A DNA stretch of 64,000 nucleotides. Source: Fodinibius salsisoli. GTDB taxonomy: Bacteria > Bacteroidota > Rhodothermia > Balneolales > Balneolaceae. The DNA is taken from assembly GCF_026229185.1 (NCBI RefSeq), contig NZ_JAGGJA010000010.1:1-64000 (forward strand). The letters are read 5' to 3'. Shown here in pieces: positions 5,210 to 51,280 of the stretch (positions are counted from its first letter, which is position 1; each line of letters begins with the position of its first letter). Position numbers and translations under genes: made by a program. Below the pieces are notes generated by a model, which worked only from the letters and a program-made list of their open reading frames with translations, searched no databases and had not been told where the DNA came from.

Positions 5210-5625
5210 GGAACAAATTATCTGTTCTATTTTTTGGATGACCAAAAAACGAAACGCAAAAAAGTCACCGTCTGAGAAAAGAGGGCGGGGAATGTTAGTT
5301 CGGATCAGAGGTCATAAAATATCCCTTCGAAGGGAGTACCGCTGAAGGCGGGGAGGGATGTTTATCCTATCTTTCGCTGATGTAACTCCTTTAAGCTTTG
5401 AGGGAGTTTAACTCCCATTTGCCGCGTCCTTTCTTCGGGAGTGCAACTTCATAGCACAGTGGACAGGAGCGGGGTCGGGGTATTACGCATTTCTCTTCTC
5501 AAGGAAGGGGGCAGTATATTCAAGTGTCGGGGACTTAGTTCGAGGTTTGTTTCTTCAAACTAAGCTAAAAAAGTTTCATTTTATCAATAAAGCTCATACC
5601 TTACCAACGCTCTTTGAAATAGTGT

Positions 5626-5824
5626 ATTGGTTTCGCTGATTGATAGCAATCAACCAGCGATGAAAAGGGAATTCCGTGCCCCGGCACTGACTTTATTGCC
5701 GTGTAATCGGAAGCTGTACCCGCAACTGTGAATCCATTTCAGGTGTTGTCCCCAACCTTTTGCCACTGTCCCGATACTTCGGGATGGGAAGGCCGGACAG
5801 CCGGATAAGCCAGAAGACCTGCCA
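5626..5824 (+). promoter_or_regulatory. Cobalamin riboswitch upstream of btuB
   Basis: All core boxes of the cobalamin riboswitch are visible: TGAAAAGGGAATTCCGTGCC at about 5661-5680, the AAGCTGTACCCGCAACTGTGA core at 5711-5731, GCCACTGTCCC at 5762-5772, a short P-stem (CCCGATACTTCGGGA), GGGAAGGCC at 5785-5793, and AAGCCAGAAGACCTGCC at 5808-5824. The aptamer ends 54 nt before the btuB start. It is a better match to the consensus than the copy at 1130-1297 and should repress btuB and btuG when intracellular B12 is high. Confidence 0.95.
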
Positions 5825-5878
5825 AACAATTCTATTTCTTGAGGAACTTTCGGGAGTTAAAGTTTCTACGAGGATTTT

Positions 5879-9708: not shown

Positions 9709-10767
9709 ATGATGTTTTCTATGAAAGAATTCAACATAACCGTGGTTAACGAGGGTCTCAAAGAAGCCTTACAACAGAAAATAGATTCCAAAACAAAGCC
9801 CGTCGGTGCGTTGGGCCGACTGGAAGACATTGCATTGCGTGTGGGACTGATCCAGCAGCGGTTGGATCCAGAATTGAAAAATCCGTTGTTAGCCGTATTT
9901 GCCGGCGACCACGGTATTGCTGCCCAAGGTATTGTGAATGCGTATCCACAAGAAGTAACCGCCCAGATGGTATTAAATATGGTTTCCGGGGGTGCGGCCA
10001 TAAACGTCTTTTGTAATTCACATAACCTCTCGGCAAAAATCATTGACGCTGGGGTGGCTGCTGAACTTCCAGCCAGAGAGCAGTTACTGAACAATAAAAT
10101 TGCTTTTGGAACCGAAAACTATTTAGAGCAGCCAGCCATGAGCGCAGCGCAGTGCTGGGAAGCCATAGAAACAGGGGCGATGTTAGTTGATCAATGGGCC
10201 GAAGAGGGTACGAATATTATCGGCTTTGGAGAGATGGGGATCGGTAATACGTCATCCGCCGCTATTATCACCAGCTTAATCACCGGTGCATCTATAGAAG
10301 CATGTACAGGCAAAGGAACCGGGCTGGATGAGACCGGCATTTCTGAAAAAGTTCGGATATTGACGAAAGCCATCCGCGCCCATGGGGATCAGGAAGATCC
10401 TGTAACTATCCTTCAAACCTTCGGTGGTTTTGAAATTGCCATGATGGTGGGAGGCATGCTGCAGGCCGCTGAGCATCGCATGGTCATTTTGGTGGATGGT
10501 TTTATTGCCACCGCCGCTTTTATGCTGGCTTGCGAATGGTATCCGGATATCCGGGAGTACGGAATTTTTGCCCATCAATCGGAGGTGCGCGGCCATCAGA
10601 TTCAACTGGAATACCTGAAGGCCAAACCACTACTGCAGTTGGATATGCGACTGGGCGAGGGGACGGGCGCCGCCATGGCCTATCCTGTCGTTCAGTCAGC
10701 GGTAAATTTTTTAAATGATATGGCCTCTTTCGAGGATGCAGGAGTATCAGAGGGAGGTCCATCATGA
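9709..10767 (+). CDS. cobT: Nicotinate-nucleotide--dimethylbenzimidazole phosphoribosyltransferase
   Basis: CobT activates the lower-ligand base (for example dimethylbenzimidazole) with nicotinate mononucleotide to give alpha-ribazole phosphate. About 352 residues. Landmarks are KTKPVGALGRLEDIA near residue 25, FAGDHGIAAQGI with the substrate-binding DHG, YPQEVTAQMVLNMVSGGAAINVF, GFGEMGIGNTSSAAI, and LDMRLGEGTGAAMA containing the expected catalytic Glu. Candidate starts are 9691 (TTG), 9709, 9712 and 9721 (ATG); 9709 or 9721 best matches the family N-terminus. Its stop overlaps the cobS start by four bases. Confidence 0.94.
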   Translation: MMFSMKEFNITVVNEGLKEALQQKIDSKTKPVGALGRLEDIALRVGLIQQRLDPELKNPLLAVFAGDHGIAAQGIVNAYPQEVTAQMVLNMVSGGAAINVFCNSHNLSAKIIDAGVAAELPAREQLLNNKIAFGTENYLEQPAMSAAQCWEAIETGAMLVDQWAEEGTNIIGFGEMGIGNTSSAAIITSLITGASIEACTGKGTGLDETGISEKVRILTKAIRAHGDQEDPVTILQTFGGFEIAMMVGGMLQAAEHRMVILVDGFIATAAFMLACEWYPDIREYGIFAHQSEVRGHQIQLEYLKAKPLLQLDMRLGEGTGAAMAYPVVQSAVNFLNDMASFEDAGVSEGGPS

Positions 10768-42388: not shown

Positions 42389-42560
42389 GGACAATCTTTT
42401 AACTCTATCGGATTTTCAAAAATCCCTAAGATACATGTATAGAATCCAGCCTATCTAAAAAGGAAAAGTTAGAGGGGGGACAGTTCTATTTCTGCTACTA
42501 GAGTAAATATTGGTATCAGGAAAGGCGATCAAGATTGGAAGGTCGAATAACCGTAATCCG

Positions 42561-42632
42561 TTGGGAGGCAAGGAGTACCTGAGGGGGGACTCGAACCCCC
42601 ACAACCGAAATGGTTACCGGATTTTGAATCCG
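42561..42632. repeat. attL: displaced 3' part of tRNA-Leu
   Basis: This exact 72-bp copy of the tRNA 3' end begins in the anticodon stem. Bases 42576-42632 match 57 nt of the minus-strand tRNA-Leu; 15 more bases past the tRNA end are also shared. The gene fragment lacks the 5' half and cannot form a tRNA. After 42632 the sequence (TTTTTGTAAAC) departs from the intact tRNA. Confidence 0.95.
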
Positions 42633-42748
42633 TTTTTGTAAACATTTCTTAGTATTTCATATCCCTTCTAAATATTGCCCAAACTATTGAATATCATACA
42701 TTTAACCATTACTTTGAATTGAAGGATATTTCATAGCATTAAAATATT

Positions 42749-42770
42749 TGTTGTCCCTATGTTGTCCCGA
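42749..42770 (+). promoter_or_regulatory. Putative left arm-type integrase site
   Basis: This 22-bp sequence contains TTGTCCC twice, 11 bases apart. The identical 22 bp occur at 51129-51150 near the other end. It lies 116 bp inside attL and 37 bp before the integrase start. Such repeated short motifs flanking the core are typical arm-type sites of tyrosine integrases; this is inferred from position only. Confidence 0.6.
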
Positions 42771-42807
42771 GAGTAAAAAAATAGGAAATATCAGCTAACA
42801 TTTAGAT

Positions 42808-44004
42808 ATGGAAAAATTAAAGCTAACAGACCCTTTTATCAGGCATTACCCAGCTCCGAATAAGAGGACTGAAATTTATGATGAACATACTTCTGGATTG
42901 GCTGTACGAATAACAGCAAAGGGCACAAAGTCGTTTGTATATCGTTATAGGTTTAATGATAAGGTACGTCGGTTTACGATCGGAAGGTTCCCGAAAACAT
43001 CACTGGCAGAAGCCCGAGAACGTGCCGGAGAACTTGAACGGAAGGTGAGCGAGGGCATAGACCCAATGGAAGCAAAAAAGGCTCGTAAGAGCAAGCCCCA
43101 GCCTAAAAAATTTGAATACCTGGCTAACCAGTTTAAAAAGAAGCATCTGCCTACCCTGAAAGAATCGACACAGAAAACCTATACCGAACGAATAGACGGT
43201 GAGATGATTCCGGCCTTTAAGGGTATGGCGGTAAAAAATATCAGCAGGGGAGTCATCATTGAGCTGTTAGAGGATATACTCGACCGTGGCAGTCCCTACC
43301 AATCCAACAGGGTTCGGGCTATTCTTTCAAGTATGTTCTCTTTCGGTGTGCAGCGAGAGATAGCAGAGTATAATCCGGTAAAGACCATTAAGCCATTGGG
43401 CAAGGAAGAGAAACGGGACAGGGTACTGGAAGAAGATGAGATAAAGAAGCTATGGGAGGGCTTTGGTACAATAAAACAGCCAACCGGATCTTTGTTTAGA
43501 ATGTTGTTACTGTTAGGCCAGCGATTGGGGGAGACGCGACGGATGAAGTGGGAGCATATCGAGGATGGTATCTGGACTATTCCCAAAGAGCTGACAAAGG
43601 CTAAACGGACGCACTACTTGCCGTTACCGCCCTTAGCATTAGAAATTATAGAGAGTCTATCGAATGATAGCCCGTATGTATTCCAGTCTCCAATGAAGGA
43701 TAACGAGCCACTAAGTAGCGTTCACAGTAGTTTTAACCGTCTGCAAAAAGATTTATCAATTGATAATATCCGTATCCATGATTTCAGGCGCACAGCGGCT
43801 ACCTACATGGCTGAGTTAGGCACAGACCGGACGATATTGGGCAAGGTACTAAATCATAAAGGCTTAGCTGGTGATTCCCAGGTTACGGCGAGGTACGACC
43901 GGCATGGGTATGTTGATGAAAAACGAACGGCCTTAAATCGATGGAGCCACAAATTACAGCAGATTATTGAAGGAACGGAAACCAAAATTACTAAAATTGG
44001 ATAG
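42808..44004 (+). CDS. int: P4-type tyrosine integrase (DUF4102 + phage integrase)
   Basis: The 398-residue integrase has the N-terminal DUF4102 arm-DNA-binding domain (SGLAVRITAKGTKSFVYRYR, RFTIGRFPKTSLAEARERA), a SAM-like core-binding part (from FEYLANQFKKKHLPTL) and a C-terminal catalytic domain. Catalytic residues are visible: Arg 239 in GQRLGETRRMKW, His 324 and Arg 327 in IHDFRRTAATYMAELG, His 350 in VLNHKG, and the nucleophile Tyr 363 in VTARYDRH. This class inserts elements into tRNA genes, as here. It transcribes away from attL. All key residues are intact, so it may be active. Confidence 0.97.
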   Translation: MEKLKLTDPFIRHYPAPNKRTEIYDEHTSGLAVRITAKGTKSFVYRYRFNDKVRRFTIGRFPKTSLAEARERAGELERKVSEGIDPMEAKKARKSKPQPKKFEYLANQFKKKHLPTLKESTQKTYTERIDGEMIPAFKGMAVKNISRGVIIELLEDILDRGSPYQSNRVRAILSSMFSFGVQREIAEYNPVKTIKPLGKEEKRDRVLEEDEIKKLWEGFGTIKQPTGSLFRMLLLLGQRLGETRRMKWEHIEDGIWTIPKELTKAKRTHYLPLPPLALEIIESLSNDSPYVFQSPMKDNEPLSSVHSSFNRLQKDLSIDNIRIHDFRRTAATYMAELGTDRTILGKVLNHKGLAGDSQVTARYDRHGYVDEKRTALNRWSHKLQQIIEGTETKITKIG

Positions 44005-44008
44005 TATT

Positions 44009-44575
44009 ATGAGTAAAGAAGAAGGATTTTTCAAAGTAAAGATTGAAAGCAGTACGGAGAAAGATTATAAAGCCTTGCAGGCCAAAAAGGAAAAGCTAAA
44101 AGAAGAAGCCTCAGCTTTGCAGGAGCAATATAATTCTGAGATAGCGAAGGCATTGAAAATTGATGATCCTCAAAGGAGGATTGATAAACTCCAAGCGGGC
44201 CTTTCTTTATTAAAAAGACATAGAATTAATGGTAAGGTTGACCAAAACTGGGCTGATCGGAAAATTAAGCTATTGGGAAGAGAGATAGATAAAGCTGAAG
44301 ATGCAATCTATAGAAGTGGTAAGGGTTCTACGGATAAAAGCGGAGACGGTAAACGAGGTCGAAAACCCATTAGCGCTGAAGTAAAACAAAAAATAAAACA
44401 ATATTATAGGACAAATAAAGAGCAGCTGGAGAATAACAATGAGGATGCTGACGGATATCCTATACAGGCTTGGATTGCAAGACAAATATTAGAGGAAAAA
44501 GACGAAGATATTGGAATTTCTGATGCATACGCAGATCCCGAACGCACAATTATCGAATGTATGAATGATATTTAG
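44009..44575 (+). CDS. Coiled-coil protein of unknown function
   Basis: A 188-residue protein rich in Lys and Glu with heptads from about residue 15 to 55 (DYKALQAKKEKLKEEASALQ) and a further helix near residue 80-105. A basic linker KRGRKPISAEVKQKIKQYY follows, of the AT-hook or HTH-entry kind, so DNA binding is possible. The ATG at 44009 is five bases after the integrase stop, which suggests co-transcription. An in-frame TTG at 43967 inside the integrase is unlikely. No family recognised. Confidence 0.7.
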   Translation: MSKEEGFFKVKIESSTEKDYKALQAKKEKLKEEASALQEQYNSEIAKALKIDDPQRRIDKLQAGLSLLKRHRINGKVDQNWADRKIKLLGREIDKAEDAIYRSGKGSTDKSGDGKRGRKPISAEVKQKIKQYYRTNKEQLENNNEDADGYPIQAWIARQILEEKDEDIGISDAYADPERTIIECMNDI

Positions 44576-44719
44576 TAGTCGATGAAAAAAATGAAGAAAT
44601 AATAAATTATTATTCATCCTTGCCCACCAAAGACTTATAGGAATTTAAGAAGTTAATTTTTCCCTGATTTCAAAGTAAGTATTCTGAATTGTCTTGAAAA
44701 TTAAATCAATCAATTCAGT

Positions 44720-44953
44720 ATGAAAAACTTACAGATTATACGCCCGTCTGAACTGGCAGAAATTTTAAATGTTTCTACCGTCACCATTTGGAGAATGGAG
44801 AAACGGAATGAGCTGCCACCCCGAAAAAAAATTAGTAGCCGTTGCGTTGGCTGGACTGAAAAGTCTATCGAAGAATGGTTGGATAACCGACCCTATGCCG
44901 ATCCTGAAGCCGAAGCAGAGAGAGAATCCAATCTTGAACCCACTGTGCAATAA
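44720..44953 (+). CDS. AlpA/MerR-like helix-turn-helix regulator, possible excisionase
   Basis: A 77-residue protein beginning IIRPSELAEILNVSTVTIWRMEK, a MerR/AlpA-type helix-turn-helix, then LPPRKKISSRCVGWTEKSIEEWL with the conserved wing that AlpA and Xis-like proteins use. These small regulators control integrase or excision genes in P4-like elements. It lies two genes after the integrase. An acidic tail of about 20 residues follows. Confidence 0.9.
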   Translation: MKNLQIIRPSELAEILNVSTVTIWRMEKRNELPPRKKISSRCVGWTEKSIEEWLDNRPYADPEAEAERESNLEPTVQ

Positions 44954-44957
44954 AAAA

Positions 44958-44982
44958 GCCCTCCGGCAGTAACCGGAAGGGC
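44958..44982. terminator. Hairpin after the AlpA gene, T-tail only on the minus strand
   Basis: GCCCTCCGG and CCGGAAGGGC form a stable stem. On the plus strand it is preceded by A6 and followed by AGGAG, so it lacks a T tail. Read from the minus strand it becomes a terminator-like hairpin followed by TTTTTT, yet no minus-strand gene sits just to the right. It may block antisense transcription. Confidence 0.5.
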
Positions 44983-45047
44983 AGGAGACGACACGCCCCA
45001 ATATACGTGTTGCGCTCCTTAATTGCACAAAACTATGAGGCGACACT

Positions 45048-45323
45048 ATGGACGATCAAACAAAACGAAATCAAATTAGAAAGACCTTTCAGGCCCTACA
45101 TGGAGATGAACCCTTGACGAGACTACAAGTTGCCCAAAAGACCGGTATACGGCGCGCGAATGTGTGTTGGTACATCCGACACTTTCGTAAACGAAATCAA
45201 GTTGCCGTTGTAAGGAAAGGCATCGATCCGATTACCCGCCACCCTGCAGAGTTCCTTACCACCAATCCGGATCTGTTCCCTGACGATCCACAAACGGATA
45301 TGTTCGGGGGCAGCGATGAGTAA
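45048..45323 (+). CDS. Winged-helix-like DNA-binding protein
   Basis: A 91-residue protein with a helix-turn-helix from LTRLQVAQKTGIRRANVCWYIRHFRKRNQVAVVRKG, the pattern of a winged-helix domain with a beta wing. The acidic tail ends FPDDPQTDMFGGSDE. The last eight bases overlap the next gene, so they are translated together. It may regulate the element or aid replication; no closer family is recognised. Confidence 0.75.
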   Translation: MDDQTKRNQIRKTFQALHGDEPLTRLQVAQKTGIRRANVCWYIRHFRKRNQVAVVRKGIDPITRHPAEFLTTNPDLFPDDPQTDMFGGSDE

Positions 45324-46113
45324 GGAATCAACCCGCCTCAAAATACCATGCGAAATGGCTGTATTTGCCTGTAGTGAGCATAAATATAAGCAGGTAGGCT
45401 GTTATACGGCATCACACTTTATCTACAGTGGCAACGCCCATAGTAGCGATAAGCCGGTTCATGCTGTGGCTGAAGCTACAGGCTATCCAGTCAAATCAGT
45501 GTATCGTTATTTCAGATGGCTGATATGTCGCAACTGGTTTGGTAAGAATAGCTATGGCCGGTACTACTTCCGAGGCATTGACCAAGTACATCAAATTGAA
45601 GGTTGGAAGTTCGCCCGAGCTGCTATGATGCGGAGTAAGGATTTACAGAATATTCAAGCGTTTATGGCAGGTGTGGTTTGCGCTTCACTTGTCCAAACGG
45701 GAAAGGGCCAACGTGGAGAGCAAGTTAAGGGGTGCTCCAAACATGACGTTGGCCCAATTTCCCTATCAGTGTTAGCGGATGTGTTAGATGTTTCAACCCG
45801 CCACGCTCAAAAGTTACGTAAAATGGCTGATGAAGCCAATTATATCCGTAATAAGCCAACATTAACCGAGATAACCAACTGGACACCTGAGGACTTGAAA
45901 GAGCTTAAAAAGCAGGATTTACATTATTTACCGGTAGAGCTTTTAGGATATGCAGATAAGAAGGTTACGGCAATTGATCGTATCCGTTATAAGGATGATA
46001 AGCTTTTCTTGCAAGAGGCTAACACAATTAAATATTTGCTACAGCTAAAGAGTAGAAAGGGCTTGTCTCAGTACCAGCCCCCAAACCCCAGTACTAATGT
46101 TAGAACGAAATGA
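45316..46113 (+). CDS. HTH-containing protein of unknown function, possibly a replication or regulator protein
   Basis: A 265-residue protein. AVAEATGYPVKSVYRYFRWL and LSVLADVLDVSTRHAQKLRKMADEANYI are two helix-turn-helix-like segments, in the style of phage replication or regulator proteins. The C-terminus is Lys-rich with KKVTAIDRIRYKDD. It starts inside the previous gene and overlaps the next small frame. I do not recognise a family, though two HTH units suggest DNA binding at repeated sites. Confidence 0.7.
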   Translation: MSKESTRLKIPCEMAVFACSEHKYKQVGCYTASHFIYSGNAHSSDKPVHAVAEATGYPVKSVYRYFRWLICRNWFGKNSYGRYYFRGIDQVHQIEGWKFARAAMMRSKDLQNIQAFMAGVVCASLVQTGKGQRGEQVKGCSKHDVGPISLSVLADVLDVSTRHAQKLRKMADEANYIRNKPTLTEITNWTPEDLKELKKQDLHYLPVELLGYADKKVTAIDRIRYKDDKLFLQEANTIKYLLQLKSRKGLSQYQPPNPSTNVRTK

Positions 46114-46231
46114 GAATGAACATTTGACCAATAACAACCCCATGGTAGATAAGCTCAAAGAAATTTTCGCTGATGATGTTGACTTGCTCTTTTTGTGGCT
46201 CTTAATCCTGATAATCTTGCAAACGCTATGA
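46097..46231 (+). CDS. Small single-pass membrane protein, 44 residues
   Basis: ATG 46097 opens a 44-codon frame ending in TGA at 46229-46231. The protein has a polar N-terminus (MLERNENEHLTNNN) and a hydrophobic stretch LLFLWLLILIILQTL at the end. A shorter start is at 46142. It overlaps the preceding gene by 17 bases and the next by four (ATGA), a chain of coupled starts that argues it is real. It could be a holin-like or toxin-like peptide, but there is no evidence beyond its shape. Confidence 0.5.
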   Translation: MLERNENEHLTNNNPMVDKLKEIFADDVDLLFLWLLILIILQTL

Positions 46232-46347
46232 GCTTAACGAAAGCAGACAAACAGAAATTGGAAGAATTACGGAAACAGAAACGCAACGGGAATCTTGACG
46301 AGAATATGCGCCCGTATCTGAAATGGCTTTTAAAACATGAAAATTAA
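46228..46347 (+). CDS. Very small polar protein, 39 residues
   Basis: ATG 46228 overlaps the stop of the upstream microgene (ATGA). The 39-residue product, starting MSLTKADKQKLEELRKQK and ending LKWLLKHEN, is a likely amphipathic helix. The overlap and the small gaps on both sides support translation. Confidence 0.5.
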   Translation: MSLTKADKQKLEELRKQKRNGNLDENMRPYLKWLLKHEN

Positions 46348-46371
46348 TCACAACAAACAATAAATAACGAT

Positions 46372-46941
46372 ATGAGTTACACAAGTTTATCAAAAAAAAG
46401 GAAGTCAATAAGATCAACAATTAATGAGAATAAGGCCGAACTATCCGAGTTGGAAGTGAAGCGTGATAATCTCTTTGAACAACTCGAAGAGGTTGAAGAG
46501 CAGCGCGTAAACGAACGTGCAAAGGTTAAGGTAGGCAGGGGATCGGATAAAAAATCGAAGGCCGCAGATAAGCAATATACGAACGTGAAATCCGAACTGG
46601 AGAAGGTGCGTGATGATATAGCAGTATCCGAGAAAGCGATCGAGATGCTGGAAGATGAAAAGGCAGAAATAGAATCAGATTTTCAGCAGGCTGCACGTAA
46701 GAAATGGCATGATAAGGCCGGTAAGCACTTGTCTAATATCCATGATCTGATGCAGCAGGTAAAATCCGAGATTGACACCCTTAATGGTTACCGTAAGGAG
46801 TTACAAGCGGATAGTTTTCATAACCCCAGCCGATCATTTTTTGAAGGTATAGGCCACGATTCAATGCCGGTTATTAGTAAAGGCAAGTTGGGAGCAGATG
46901 CACGGAATTTCATTACAATGAATAATCTCAAATCAGAATAA
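46372..46941 (+). CDS. Long coiled-coil protein of unknown function
   Basis: A 189-residue protein predicted to be mostly coiled coil: ELSELEVKRDNLFEQLEEVEEQ near 20-41, then VKSELEKVRDDIAVSEKAIEMLEDE near 74-98, and a short Gly/Pro-bearing tail (NPSRSFFEGIGHDSMPVISKG cut to its core FFEGIGHDS). Such proteins serve as scaffolds or tape-like parts in phages, but no direct link is visible. Confidence 0.7.
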   Translation: MSYTSLSKKRKSIRSTINENKAELSELEVKRDNLFEQLEEVEEQRVNERAKVKVGRGSDKKSKAADKQYTNVKSELEKVRDDIAVSEKAIEMLEDEKAEIESDFQQAARKKWHDKAGKHLSNIHDLMQQVKSEIDTLNGYRKELQADSFHNPSRSFFEGIGHDSMPVISKGKLGADARNFITMNNLKSE

Positions 46942-46942
46942 T

Positions 46943-47053
46943 ATGTCAAAATTCAAATTCACGGAATCACCAAAAAAACAGAAATCGGTAACTAAGAATC
47001 CGAAGAAAGCATTTTCAGTAACACCTAAGAAATCTAAAACCACAAAGGTATAA
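46943..47053 (+). CDS. Tiny basic protein, 36 residues
   Basis: ATG 46943 starts one base after the preceding stop and encodes 36 residues, MSKFKFTESPKKQKSVTKNP onward with Lys/Ser/Thr repeats, ending at TAA 47051-47053. The next gene starts four bases later. Its tight placement supports a gene; its charge suggests nucleic-acid binding. Confidence 0.5.
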   Translation: MSKFKFTESPKKQKSVTKNPKKAFSVTPKKSKTTKV

Positions 47054-47057
47054 CGAT

Positions 47058-47303
47058 ATGACAGTAACAAAAGAGCAATTAGACAACCTACGAACTGAGG
47101 ACGGTTACTTTTCAGAGCCTGAAGCCAAACTCTTGGAAAAGATGGAAGGCAAACCACTTAACGAGATTGTTCAGGACGTTGAGCAGCAATCCAATATCCC
47201 TAAGGGAAATCCAGCAACCGATTGGTCTCGAAAACAGAAGCTGGCTTATCTGGAAGATCATTCGCACCAGGATTATAAAACGTTAATTGATGAACGGAAA
47301 TAG
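47058..47303 (+). CDS. Small helical protein of unknown function
   Basis: An 81-residue protein (MTVTKEQLDNLRTEDGYFSE, then KMEGKPLNEIVQDVEQQSNI) predicted to be helical and acidic-basic mixed. No domain recognised. A 180-bp gap with inverted repeats (GGCCGAAAATCGG) follows before the next gene. Confidence 0.6.
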   Translation: MTVTKEQLDNLRTEDGYFSEPEAKLLEKMEGKPLNEIVQDVEQQSNIPKGNPATDWSRKQKLAYLEDHSHQDYKTLIDERK

Positions 47304-47483
47304 GGGTATGGCCGAAAATCGGTCTGGCCGGTGTAGTGTGTGCGCTGGCCGCCCCTTTAATATCGGCAGGAAAGCACACATAACAAACGAAATATCTTAT
47401 AGGCTATAGGGGGTAGTAAAAACCCATTTGAAGCCTGTAGAACTAATTTTAATGCCTTATACAGCAAATTAAACTCCGTTATA

Positions 47484-47741
47484 ATGAGCAGTTACAAACG
47501 AAATAGGAGCCGTAAAAGCTGGGATATTCAGAAATTGAAACTTCGTATCCAGGACGCTTTAAAAGCGATTGAACCCGTTTTTTTAGGTGAAGAGGGCAAA
47601 GACTACGATAGGGATGATATGCAGCTCAAATGTAAGGCTGCTCATGCCTATTCCCAGCTGGCAAGTAAGCACCGCAAACTCTTAGAATTGGAAGAAATCG
47701 AGGAGCGGTTGAGTAAATTGGAAGAACAACACAATACATGA
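47484..47741 (+). CDS. Small coiled-coil protein with C-terminal ERLSKLE motif
   Basis: An 85-residue protein: basic start SSYKRNRSRKSWDIQKLKLR, central AHAYSQLASKHRKLLELEEI, and a C-terminal EERLSKLEE. The RL-KLE motif recurs near the N-terminus of the next two small proteins and is common in small proteins of tailed-phage DNA-packaging regions. Function unknown. Confidence 0.6.
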   Translation: MSSYKRNRSRKSWDIQKLKLRIQDALKAIEPVFLGEEGKDYDRDDMQLKCKAAHAYSQLASKHRKLLELEEIEERLSKLEEQHNT

Positions 47742-47745
47742 TAAA

Positions 47746-47991
47746 ATGAGTTATAAACGCAGATTGGACAAAATCGAAGAGAACAGCTGTCATGGTTTAT
47801 CGCTTGATGCGTTGACCATTGCAGACGAACCGATTATCCGCGAAGATATAGCGACCGATAAGCAGAAATACATACAGGTGCCCACACCCTTTGGTATGGG
47901 ATTGAAGCCCGTTGATGATAGTCACCCGCAGGGTATGACTAAGCAGCAGCATCTTGAAAACGGTAATGATATAGCATACGAGGTACAATAA
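47746..47991 (+). CDS. Small protein with N-terminal RRLDKIE motif
   Basis: An 81-residue protein that starts MSYKRRLDKIEENS, similar to the start of the next gene. The rest (YIQVPTPFGMGLKPVDD, then GMTKQQHLENGNDI) is not recognised. It starts four bases after the preceding stop. Confidence 0.6.
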   Translation: MSYKRRLDKIEENSCHGLSLDALTIADEPIIREDIATDKQKYIQVPTPFGMGLKPVDDSHPQGMTKQQHLENGNDIAYEVQ

Positions 47992-47993
47992 TT

Positions 47994-48179
47994 ATGAAAA
48001 GTCACGAACGTAGGATAGAAAAGCTGGAAGATAAGACTATGAACACCAGACCTGATGCTCCGGATAATCTGGGGGATCTATACGCTACGGAAGATGACCC
48101 CAAGTCTGAAATGAGCAAGGCTTTAGATGCTTTGTATAATCCAAACAGGGGAACTAAGAATCCCAATGATGCAATTTGA
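47994..48179 (+). CDS. Small protein with N-terminal RRIEKLE motif
   Basis: A 61-residue protein starting MKSHERRIEKLEDK, matching the RRLDKIE start of its neighbour. The tail is Asn/Pro/Asp-rich (LYNPNRGTKNPNDAI). The gap to the previous gene is only two bases. Confidence 0.6.
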   Translation: MKSHERRIEKLEDKTMNTRPDAPDNLGDLYATEDDPKSEMSKALDALYNPNRGTKNPNDAI

Positions 48180-48214
48180 ATGATATTCTTTAAAAGCAAA
48201 AAAACGGCAACATC

Positions 48215-48472
48215 ATGAATAATTATAAAGCTTTGTTCTTACTGGCGACTGCATTTGTTGTGGTGAATAGTAATTTCTCATGTTCTCAAAGCGAGCTTTC
48301 ACCGGCGTTGCAGGAGTATTTGAATAAGTCAAAGAAACAGCAACCAACAGATACAACATTTACGAGGATTCCCTTAACATTCCCTGAAAGAAGGAGGCAT
48401 CCTGATGATTTTTTCCGGGAAGAGTTAGGGAGAGGTGTTCCAATAGACTTTGCCGAAAATGATAGTATTTAG
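48215..48472 (+). CDS. Small exported or lipoprotein-like protein
   Basis: An 85-residue protein with a hydrophobic N-terminus (YKALFLLATAFVVVNSNFSC) where Cys 23 could be a lipobox, then a Lys/Arg/Glu-rich polar body (IPLTFPERRRHPDDFFREEL). It may be a lysis-type or surface lipoprotein, which is a guess. No family recognised. Confidence 0.55.
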   Translation: MNNYKALFLLATAFVVVNSNFSCSQSELSPALQEYLNKSKKQQPTDTTFTRIPLTFPERRRHPDDFFREELGRGVPIDFAENDSI

Positions 48473-48580
48473 CTAATGGTATAGTATGCCGGAAGGTATT
48501 TAAACGCCTTAGAACGAATCCTCAGAAGCCGTTTAGAGGCCACAGACAACGATTTTTACAATTAACCAAATAACAGCATT

Positions 48581-49228
48581 ATGTTAGACATAGCAGGTAA
48601 ATTAACGATGGGAACCGGCGGTGAGATCGGCAACGCCGGAGCAGACTATTCCATCACAGACGAGGGATTCAACGTAACGGAAAACGCCTCTTTTTTAGAG
48701 CGCAACGCCTATACCGTTGGTAATGCCCGAGGTGCTTTCTGGGGAGACGGGAGCGATATCATATTAGAAGCCCGGGACTTGTCCGGCGGAGACCTTGCCC
48801 TTCGATCTCTGGGTGGAAATATAAACCTTCGCAGTGTTGGTTCTGTAGGTGAAAATAATCTATACGGCTACAACCACTTCGAACGCTTCCAGCAGCAGGG
48901 CGATGAGACGCGCACGCTGACTAATAGCGGGGAGGACTCGTTAACTATTGATGCGCCTATCGTGCGGCTTACCTCTGTTAATTCAGGAGCAGTACTGGCC
49001 CGAATTGATATAGGCACGTCTCCGAATACTGATCGGTCGTTCTCTTTTGCTCTTGTCAACGATTCAGGAACAGACTTGACGGTACGCGACCAGAGCAACG
49101 CAAGTCTTTCTGGGGCCAATGTTATAACACCCGCCCATGTTGACCGGGAGTTCCAGGACGGCGGCCGCTTTGAAGTAACCTACATTTTAGCAACGGGTAA
49201 TTATCACATTAACCAGGACAGGAATTAA
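48581..49228 (+). CDS. Repeat-rich protein resembling a phage tail-fibre or structural protein
   Basis: A 215-residue protein without a signal peptide. It is dominated by Gly, Asn, Ser and Asp with short beta-like repeats (MGTGGEIGNAGADYSITDEGF, IILEARDLSGGDLALRSLGGN cut to its core DLSGGDLALR, INLRSVGSVGENNLYGYN, VRLTSVNSGAV, and a C-terminal GRFEVTYILATGNYHINQD). This kind of beta-solenoid or trimeric-fibre sequence is usual for phage tail fibres or baseplate proteins, but no single family is certain. It sits one base ahead of the Ntn-hydrolase-like gene, so the two are probably one transcript. The base composition is higher in GC than in the small genes upstream. Confidence 0.55.
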   Translation: MLDIAGKLTMGTGGEIGNAGADYSITDEGFNVTENASFLERNAYTVGNARGAFWGDGSDIILEARDLSGGDLALRSLGGNINLRSVGSVGENNLYGYNHFERFQQQGDETRTLTNSGEDSLTIDAPIVRLTSVNSGAVLARIDIGTSPNTDRSFSFALVNDSGTDLTVRDQSNASLSGANVITPAHVDREFQDGGRFEVTYILATGNYHINQDRN

Positions 49229-49229
49229 A

Positions 49230-49883
49230 ATGAGTTGTATAGCAATCACTTCGACACGAAAGAAAATTATACTTTTATCAGACGGCCGGTCAGCTTCCGA
49301 GGCTACCAGAGAGGTAACACGGATGGACAAGCCCAAAGTTCATAAGGTATCCGGGGACACCGGTCTGGCATGGCTGGGGTGGTATCCGACCGAGAGCGCG
49401 GACAAAGAGCTTGTAGAACATTTGAACCCTACCGAGTGGCCGACCATGAACGCCGAAATATTGGCCCATAAAGCGTCTGATTACATCAAAGACGGAATGT
49501 CCCCGGAGGCACTGGCAAAGCTGGACGGAGAGAACCCGCTAAGGATCTGCATTCTGATTATTGGCTACGACGGCAGTCAGCCCGTTATCTGGCAGATTGA
49601 CTCTCACCGGGGAGAACGGTTTGAACCTGTCTCACATAACCTGCCAATAGGAAAATCCGCTTGGATGGGATACGATAAGGGCACTTCCGATCCTACTCCT
49701 TACGTGGCAAGCTATAACACATTGCGAGAGCACGGGAGAACGCCCATACAGGCCGCCCGGCAAGCGTTTAAAGCAGCGGTAGAGAGTTATAAGGCGAAGG
49801 GAAAGCCGGTAGGCGGGGAGACGTTCAGCGTTGTTCTCCGGCCAGCCAAACAGAGCAAGTTTAGACATGCGCTAATGAATTAA
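49230..49883 (+). CDS. Proteasome-fold (Ntn-hydrolase-like) protein
   Basis: A 217-residue protein with a proteasome beta/HslV-like layout. MSCIAITSTRKKIILLSDGRSASEAT matches the standard strand-turn pattern in which a small nucleophile residue precedes strands ending in D-R-A (core shown: IILLSDGRSAS). KVHKVSGDTGLAWLGW corresponds to the K-I-x-x-I-gate region and GETFSVVLRPAKQSK to the last strands. Candidate nucleophiles after Met removal are Ser 2 or Cys 3; the expected Thr 1 is absent. It has no signal peptide. In a mobile element next to a fibre-like gene it could be a protein-processing enzyme, but activity is not shown. Confidence 0.55.
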   Translation: MSCIAITSTRKKIILLSDGRSASEATREVTRMDKPKVHKVSGDTGLAWLGWYPTESADKELVEHLNPTEWPTMNAEILAHKASDYIKDGMSPEALAKLDGENPLRICILIIGYDGSQPVIWQIDSHRGERFEPVSHNLPIGKSAWMGYDKGTSDPTPYVASYNTLREHGRTPIQAARQAFKAAVESYKAKGKPVGGETFSVVLRPAKQSKFRHALMN

Positions 49884-49960
49884 TTATATTCCAGTACTCT
49901 CTTGATGAATAGTAGGCCTTGTAGGTTGATAGCTTGCAGGGCTATTTTTATTTCTAACTC

Positions 49961-50338
49961 TTATTCTGAAACCATTACTTTTATTTCCCAATCTCCATTA
50001 GCAGAGTTAGATTTTAAGTAAAATCTTCCTGATTGATAAATAAAGGATTCGCCACTTATATTCTCTTTATTTACTTCGTTGGCTACAATCTCGCCTTCAA
50101 ATGTTTCTTGCCCAGGCTTTAGTAAGTAAACTTGAAGGATATGGCCGTTACCTTTGAGTACGGGATTTGATGCTGTTGAACTATATTCAATTTTCCATTC
50201 TTCAGAATTAACTGTAAAAGGAGCTGTATTTGATATACCAGAACCCTCAAATGTTTCAATAGTTTTCCATTCTTGATCTTGAGCATTAGCCGTTATAGCT
50301 ATACATACAATCAACGATATTAGCCATAATTTTTTCAT
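49961..50338 (-). CDS. Small exported protein of unknown function (reverse-strand cargo gene 1)
   Basis: A 125-residue protein with signal peptide MKKLWLISLIVCIAITANAQ (residues 1-20). The mature part is beta-rich (ILQVYLLKPGQETFEGEIVA, SGRFYLKSNSANGDWEIKV). It is on the strand opposite to the rest of the element and shares its leader with the next gene. No family recognised. Such reversed exported genes at the end of an element resemble morons. Confidence 0.7.
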   Translation of the reverse strand: MKKLWLISLIVCIAITANAQDQEWKTIETFEGSGISNTAPFTVNSEEWKIEYSSTASNPVLKGNGHILQVYLLKPGQETFEGEIVANEVNKENISGESFIYQSGRFYLKSNSANGDWEIKVMVSE

Positions 50339-50339
50339 A

Positions 50340-50418
50340 AGTACCCCGTCTTTGATGATAAATTGAAAAGTAAGTTAGAAGGATATATCAGAATCCCAAA
50401 ACACCGCACAGAATCTGG
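50340..50418 (-). promoter_or_regulatory. Duplicated leader/promoter region, copy 1
   Basis: Immediately upstream of cargo gene 1 on the minus strand. It shares with copy 2 (50885-50966) the block ACGGGGTAC next to the start codon, then ATCATCAAA, and further up TTTTG-ATTCTG and TGTGCGG in the same order. The order and spacing, but not every base, are kept, which suggests a common promoter and ribosome site. Confidence 0.6.
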
Positions 50419-50437
50419 TCTATTTAAGAGGGCTTTT

Positions 50438-50884
50438 TTATTTGCGATCAATAGCAAACCCCGAAATTTCAACACCCTGAACGTTTAAAGTTCCATTCAT
50501 TCGAGAAGTAGGAGTAACATCAAACCGAGTTATTGCATCTGCTCCCATATCTTTGGCAACTTTATAAATTTCATCAATAGCTTTTTCAACGTTAATACTT
50601 TCAGGATAAAATTCCTCTACAGTTCTATATCCGCTTTGACTATCTGAATCTGGAATGCGCCTTTCCATTTTTCGAACGGCTGGCCATTGGGTAACTGTAA
50701 TTAATCCAATAGATTGGTACTCTTCTAAATACTGTTCAGGTGTAATTAGAAAACCTTGAGCAGTATATTCTGAAAAGTCATAACCCGTAACGTTGACCAC
50801 TTCACTACGTGCTACTGTTTTAGGTCCACTGCATGAAATTGAGATAAAAGCCAATATTAAAATTGATATAGTAAGCCTATACAT
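50438..50884 (-). CDS. Small lipoprotein of unknown function (reverse-strand cargo gene 2)
   Basis: A 148-residue protein with lipobox SISC (Cys 18) after MYRLTISILILAFISI. The body includes ITPEQYLEEYQSIGLITVTQ, EKAIDEIYKVAKDMGADAITRFDV and EISGFAIDRK, a pattern that recalls small YbjQ/DUF4156-like surface lipoproteins, weakly. It shares a duplicated leader with cargo gene 1. No function assigned. Confidence 0.7.
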   Translation of the reverse strand: MYRLTISILILAFISISCSGPKTVARSEVVNVTGYDFSEYTAQGFLITPEQYLEEYQSIGLITVTQWPAVRKMERRIPDSDSQSGYRTVEEFYPESINVEKAIDEIYKVAKDMGADAITRFDVTPTSRMNGTLNVQGVEISGFAIDRK

Positions 50885-50966
50885 AGTACCCCGTCTTTTG
50901 ATGATGATTAATTTAACATCAATTTAGTAGGATTTAACAGAATAGCAAAACCGCACACAGAAACCA
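50885..50966 (-). promoter_or_regulatory. Duplicated leader/promoter region, copy 2
   Basis: It lies directly upstream of cargo gene 2 and matches copy 1 in AGTACCCCGTCTTT-GATGAT (plus-strand reading), an A/T-rich middle, and CAGAAT and CCGCACA at the far end. A third short match, GCGCACAGAATCCGG, occurs at about 51063-51077. Confidence 0.6.
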
Positions 50967-51128
50967 GCACGGTGAAAGGTACGGGACGTTTTATTCCAAC
51001 CAACCGCCATTCCTTAGATTAAGGGTAGCCATAGTCTAACTGACTTGAATAGCCACCCTATAACTACCCTATGCGCACAGAATCCGGATTATTGGAGAGA
51101 GAAATTAGAGGGGAGGTAAAACATTCTG

Positions 51129-51150
51129 TGTTGTCCCTATGTTGTCCCGA
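51129..51150 (+). promoter_or_regulatory. Putative right arm-type integrase site
   Basis: Exact 22-bp copy of 42749-42770, in the same orientation, 58 bp inside attR. Both have two TTGTCCC units 11 bases apart, which fits paired arm sites for the element's integrase. Not experimentally known. Confidence 0.6.
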
Positions 51151-51208
51151 ACTAAAAATAAGGATTAAATGAACGACTTATCTGTTAGGTTGTAATCATC
51201 GTAAGTCA

Positions 51209-51280
51209 TTGGGAGGCAAGGAGTACCTGAGGGGGGACTCGAACCCCCACAACCGAAATGGTTACCGGATTTTGAATCCG
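51209..51280. repeat. attR: 3' part of the intact tRNA-Leu
   Basis: Exact 72-bp partner of attL. It starts 15 bases beyond the tRNA 3' end and stops in the anticodon stem. Chromosomal sequence (GCGCGTCTACC) continues into the tRNA 5' half, so the tRNA gene is whole after integration. Confidence 0.95.

Follow-up and report, generated by a model that had tools for sequence, protein, structure and literature searches.

The locus analysed here raises the question of what a protein that begins like a proteasome subunit does in a small mobile element, directly behind a gene for a fibre-like protein. The window, i.e., the whole analysed stretch of 64,000 nucleotides from Fodinibius salsisoli (contig NZ_JAGGJA010000010.1, positions 1 to 64,000), contains an element of ~8.6 kb (42546–51280) flanked by 87-nt direct repeats that overlap a tRNA-Leu gene (51308–51223, minus strand) and cover its 3′ part. 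The left attachment repeat (42546–42632), a copy of the 3′ part of tRNA-Leu, is identical to the right one (51194–51280), which overlaps the gene itself, at 82 of 87 positions (94%), with a longest exact run of 72 and a spacing of 8,648. These repeats and a tyrosine integrase agree with the 8.6-kb island of the preliminary description, which had also placed the proteasome-like ORF one base behind the fibre-like ORF; the coordinates of both (48581–49228 and 49230–49883) were confirmed. Elsewhere in the window, two cobalamin riboswitches are found on the plus strand (1103–1314 and 5611–5840).

The plus strand of the element encodes a tyrosine integrase (42808–44004; Pfam Phage_integrase, 1.4e-16; PHROG_1, 7e-68), an AlpA/excisionase-type HTH protein (44720–44953; Pfam Phage_AlpA, 2e-8; PHROG_66, 4e-13), a 265-aa ORF (45316–46113), a 189-aa coiled-coil-like protein with weak coiled-coil matches only (46372–46941), the 215-aa fibre-like protein and the 217-aa proteasome-like Ntn protein, the last two being the final forward genes of the element. 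The 265-aa ORF, which occupies the same position as the replication-initiator gene of a related element, G011 (whose counterpart matches PHROG_270), is a putative replication initiator judged by this position. The element also has in common with G011 a conserved noncoding segment (44954–45047, plus strand; 78% identity over 83 bp), located between the AlpA gene and the ORF that follows. The leader TCATC..AAAGACGGGGTAC occurs (50339–50400 and 50885–50950) just upstream of both genes that the element has on the minus strand at its right end, and again ahead of the G011 gene on that strand (L020, about 10369–10450); it resembles a promoter or leader common to cargo genes. The fibre-like label of the window ORF is indirect: Pfam, PHROGs and further searches gave no convincing match to this ORF itself, and the label derives from the homologous G011 ORF (1.7e-6), pieces of which match the Salinibacter phage tail protein gp26 and Synechococcus phage tail-fibre proteins.

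Whole-genome searches revealed three relatives of the Ntn protein, all from the same bacterial family, namely G023 (24% identity; E-value, 2e-5), G025 and G011, so that an Ntn gene of this kind is present in 4 of the 244 genomes of the class. The four proteins are mutually homologous (pairwise E-values of 5e-5 to 5e-11; 24–29% identity), and all three relatives sit in integrase/AlpA elements. Further weak genome matches (G437, G530, G005, G042, G112 and others) were short and partial, and those inspected were non-relatives. No relatives of the window protein were found in phage records by tblastn, or in IMG/VR and the GTDB contigs by peptide patterns.

The G023 element has attachment repeats at tRNA-Leu, an integrase, AlpA-like and HTH proteins and a P4-type primase, followed by a 317-aa protein that weakly matches a carbohydrate-binding domain, then, 8 nt on, the Ntn gene, and after it a kinase-like gene with degenerate motifs and a gene resembling that of the small terminase subunit. 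That of G025, also at tRNA-Leu, encodes an integrase, RadC-like and replication proteins, a tail terminator, the Ntn protein (its start overlapped by a preceding 132-aa ORF), a kinase-like protein and the small and large terminase subunits. The G011 element carries genes for an integrase, AlpA, a replication protein, an HK97-type capsid protein, a TerS-like ORF, TerL and the fibre-like protein, with the Ntn gene 26 nt on. The labels RadC (G025), TerS-like (G011) and AlpA (relatives) are manual readings of the sequences. The kinase-like proteins downstream of the Ntn gene in G023 and G025 (179–198 aa; L003:11148–11744 and L006:971–1510) both begin with a GKW.V.K motif, and their HRD and DFG motifs are degenerate. 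The G011 element (L020:1794–9985) is compact and resembles capsid-forming PICIs, its only recognised tail gene being the fibre-like one.

Since capsid and terminase genes occur in one sister element, and terminase and tail-terminator genes in another, the Ntn-bearing elements look like phage satellites that are probably phage-dependent. The window, G023 and G025 elements share the hallmarks of location at tRNA-Leu and integrase and AlpA/HTH genes, the replication gene of the window element being assigned only by position. For the window element, in whose ORFs no capsid or terminase gene is recognisable, the satellite nature rests on these relatives. No helper prophage was found in its own genome; a weak TerL match there was rejected as such, the ORF lying among housekeeping genes.

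The fibre neighbourhood of the Ntn gene, to which the preliminary description had drawn attention, appears to be no accident: a fibre-like gene lies directly upstream in three of the four elements, at distances of 1 (window), 26 (G011) and 8 nt (G023). In the window and G011 elements, the Ntn gene is followed immediately by a terminator-like hairpin and T-rich run (window 49894–49953, plus strand; L020:9923–9981; 90% identity over 61 bp). Both Ntn proteins end with the same residues (QSKFR.ALMN), yet their bodies are only ~24–29% identical. A nearly identical flanking terminator beside such diverged bodies would fit an exchange of the fibre–Ntn cassette inside conserved flanks, as read from the sequences of these two elements.

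The 217-aa window protein has no significant family in Pfam, PHROGs, NCBIfam or PADLOC. With a four-row profile searched against the PDB, the ten best matches were all proteasome subunits (best E-value, 0.0079), and the best of them, beta type-2, aligned in register (10–122 on 10–118); the reversed profile gave no proteasome match, only a four-helix bundle (E-value, 3.1). The G023 member alone weakly matched Pfam Proteasome (E-value, 0.017) and aligned with an archaeal beta-subunit model at positions 10–59 on 10–59 (E-value, 0.0046). Profile-profile comparison of the four-member family with 13 phage HslV-like proteins plus HslV gave a score of 47.3 and an E-value of 2.6e-6, and the addition of 43 more phage sequences a probability of 93% and an E-value of 2.8e-7, both E-values being those for a single comparison. 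The true scores (47–52) lie well above those of 60 column shuffles (at most 19.3) and of the reversed alignment (18.7). An hhalign comparison with an HslV alignment of relatives alone, which was too shallow, gave the right register at an E-value of 0.35. With its invariant residues, PDB profile and reversed control, and shuffles, the proteasome beta/HslV-like start noticed earlier is above chance, and the protein almost certainly belongs to the proteasome-like Ntn fold and family. A duplicate of the host hslV was rejected as an origin of the window gene, the chromosomal hslV being a separate gene elsewhere (G000 C22).

Structure prediction and comparison with HslV and proteasome beta subunits had been suggested as a check. 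AlphaFold2 modelling of the window sequence alone yielded an unusable model, with a pLDDT of 39.8. A second model, built on an alignment with 40 phage HslV-like sequences (14–22% identity to the window protein), reached a pLDDT of 70.7 and a pTM of 0.71, with helices H1–H4 and the strand order as in a proteasome beta subunit: two N-terminal strands, helices 55–64 and 75–89, strands 107–124, helices 156–167 and 172–189, and a last strand 198–203. Foldseek returned 679 PDB matches < 1e-3, the best 50 of which were all proteasome chains (E-values down to 5.7e-8; TM about 0.48; rmsd about 7), and the best viral models were phage HslV-like proteins (TM to 0.64). VIA-align gave a Z of 14.1 to S. aureus HslV (rmsd 3.3 over 170 residues), 14.0 to Anbu (rmsd 3.7 over 184 residues) and about 14 to proteasome beta subunits, and in many entries it placed model residue 2 on chain residue 1, i.e., Ser2 on Thr1. 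The predicted structure is thus a four-layer Ntn fold with Z of about 14. Since the phage HslV-like sequences are in its alignment, the model is not independent of them, and the independent support comes from the sequence profile and its control.

According to the 2021 survey of proteasome homologues, Thr1/Ser1, Asp17, Lys33 and Gly47 are the defining positions of the proteasome-like family (PMC8665760). Only 16 of about 217 columns are invariant in the four proteins; Ser2, Asp18, Lys36 and Gly50 are among them, at the proteasome positions Ser1, Asp17, Lys33 and Gly47. All four have Asp at mature position 17, and the Lys–Gly spacing is always 14, as from 33 to 47 in the proteasome. Lys is at mature position 33 in G023 and is shifted later by 2, 3 and 12 residues in the other three because of loop insertions. 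Asp18 and Lys36 are also invariant across 41 sequences, comprising the window protein and the phage HslV-like alignment, and manual reading of the alignment indicates that proteasome Asp166 is apparently not kept. The profile-profile alignment starts at residue 1 and hence places Ser2 on the phage Thr2. The preliminary description had noted the missing Thr nucleophile, in whose place all four proteins have Ser, and had proposed either Ser2 or Cys3 instead; the first candidate stands, being invariant and aligned with Thr1, and Cys3 is rejected because the relatives have Val, Ser and Ala there. All four proteins start with Met-Ser and none has a visible propeptide. Methionine aminopeptidase removes Met ahead of Ser, so this enzyme alone could expose the nucleophile, and the self-processing once suspected finds no support. 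Hence, the window protein is predicted, with fair confidence, to be an active Ntn enzyme with a Ser nucleophile, and the peptidase function raised at the outset is plausible.

The phage 'peptidase HslV family' (PHROG_1040), which occurs in T5-like and many other tailed phages, was reached by way of a Vibrio phage V6Aob protein. The phage HslV-like sample comprised 180 phage records and 553 relatives in IMG/VR, 80 of which were kept; HslV matches in 'phage' records were set aside as mostly host DNA by appearance. The nucleophile position holds Thr in all 80 phage relatives and Ser in all four element proteins, so Ser marks the satellite branch. The HslV-like gene adjoins large terminase, portal or minor head genes in 6 of 43 dereplicated phage loci (the IMG/VR loci L082, L086, L088, L100, L116 and L137, with the match at 2501), and a head or packaging gene is found within the fetched flank in at least 9 of the 43, a lower bound obtained with few seeds. 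Many phage HslV-like genes sit in DNA-metabolism regions instead of structural ones; in T5-like phages, the gene lies by those for thymidylate synthase and RNase H. A virion-assembly location is therefore frequent but not universal. The head-and-packaging place is not reported in the 2021 survey (PMC8665760). In V6Aob (L054:3280–4525), the Thr-type HslV-like gene is located close behind a peptide deformylase gene, and this deformylase could aid exposure of the N-terminal nucleophile.

The best explanation of the whole, tentatively held at slightly less than even probability, is that the window gene encodes a Ser-type Ntn protein of satellite-like elements that acts as a late peptidase in virion morphogenesis. 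The Ntn protein would be expressed late, along with the element's structural genes and straight after the fibre-like one. Removal of Met1 would leave Ser as the N-terminal nucleophile; Lys36 and Asp18, recognised from the computed fold and site pattern, would activate it, and Gly50 would line the oxyanion hole. Limited proteolysis by this enzyme, for maturation, trimming or quality control, may be directed at the co-encoded fibre or at a different virion protein, from the element or its helper. A substrate in virion assembly, perhaps the fibre, is the best-supported guess, although a doubtful one. The fibre adjacency, the capsid, terminase and tail-terminator genes of the elements and the phage loci with head genes count for such a role; the many phage HslV-like genes in DNA-metabolism regions and the small number of fibre adjacencies (n = 3) count against it, and the apparent loss of Asp166 weighs against the explanation as a whole. 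That the Ser-type branch, confined to satellites, is a dedicated fibre-maturing (or fibre-attaching) enzyme exchanged together with its fibre is unlikely.

The homology to phage HslV-like proteins, and the early or metabolic place of the gene beside thymidylate synthase and RNase H in T5-like phages, would suit an HslV-like compartmental protease whose targets in the infected cell are proteins of the host or helper; it would serve takeover or counter-defence, and its place beside the fibre would be accidental. This explanation is rather unlikely: in the four elements the Ntn gene sits with fibre, tail-terminator and terminase genes, no gene for an unfoldase partner was noticed in any of them, and the late-gene surroundings argue weakly against the host takeover that the preliminary description had considered. 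A location directly behind fibre-like genes, where tail-fibre chaperones are usually encoded, could also indicate a structural or chaperone subunit that has the Ntn fold but no catalytic activity, as proteasome alpha subunits show that this fold can serve without catalysis; the active-site Ser, Asp, Lys and Gly are, however, invariant while the rest drops to 24–29% identity, which makes such a subunit quite improbable.

An enzyme that joins or transfers peptides, fixing, e.g., a fibre or adhesin to the particle, is brought to mind by the fibre pairing and by the acyl transfer that is possible in principle for Ser Ntn enzymes, and the protein ligase connectase is described as a member of the proteasome-like family (PMC8665760). 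According to the same source, though, connectase is without H1–H2 and carries two additional helices inserted between S3 and S4 (PMC8665760). The window model has helices 55–64 and 75–89 and no S3–S4 insertion, so this function is very improbable. Least probable of all is a capsid-maturation (prohead) protease acting on the HK97-type capsid protein of the element or its helper, for which the HK97-type capsid gene of G011, with ~120 N-terminal residues ahead of the matched capsid domain, and the lack of any other protease seen among the G011 ORFs could be cited, but the window and G023 elements, without a recognisable capsid gene, keep the Ntn gene with the fibre, and known prohead proteases usually adjoin portal and capsid genes.

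Phage proteasome-like proteins are widespread but functionally unassigned, and no telling gene context emerged from the main survey. The Ser-type branch with its fibre genes and the HslV-like genes between terminase and portal lead to the hypothesis that these peptidases take part in building virions. If the fibre-dedicated enzyme were real, satellites would swap an adhesin and its processing enzyme as one cassette. That an entire subfamily naturally has Ser for Thr is also relevant to the long-standing question of why proteasomes use threonine.

Among known systems, the phage peptidases of PHROG_1040 share with the element proteins the Ntn/proteasome fold, the lack of a propeptide, the nucleophile at residue 2 after Met1, and Asp18 and Lys in register. 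They differ in their Thr nucleophile, the element proteins having Ser and being longer (206–217 aa), and they are only 14–22% identical to the window protein; hmmscan gave no PHROG match for the window, G023 and G011 proteins, and the link to PHROG_1040 is by profile-profile comparison only. HslV (ClpQ) is alike in fold, in the D17/K33 register and in the Z of 14.1 to the S. aureus protein, whereas it has Thr1 and the window protein has Ser and ~40 more residues; no hslU-like gene was noticed among the ORFs of the window element. Fuchs, Alva and Lupas described in 2021 proteasome-like families including PPH, AAH and CPH, with the catalytic Thr1/Ser1, Asp17, Lys33 and Gly47 on an S1–S11/H1–H4 core; both PPH and AAH have phage members, some of AAH being from Bacteroidetes, and that survey gives no functional gene context for these families (PMC8665760). 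PPH proteins, at ~140 residues and without H2 (PMC8665760), are unlike the element proteins, and in the window model, which has H2, helices 55–64 and 75–89 both precede strand 107–113, setting the protein apart from PPH. It could be an outlying branch of AAH or CPH, with which it was compared by description only. The elements as a whole resemble capsid-forming PICI and P4-like satellites in their small size, integrase, AlpA, replication gene and attachment sites in a tRNA gene, as well as in the capsid and terminases of G011 and the P4-type primase of G023, and they differ in their hosts of another phylum, the fibre–Ntn pair and the lack of a known helper. The Charybdis elements (PMC12324425) were considered and are unrelated. 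Phage members of the proteasome-like family are thus already known, having been described in 2021 (PMC8665760) and annotated in phage genomes; what is new is that satellites carry a Ser-type branch of it together with a fibre gene.
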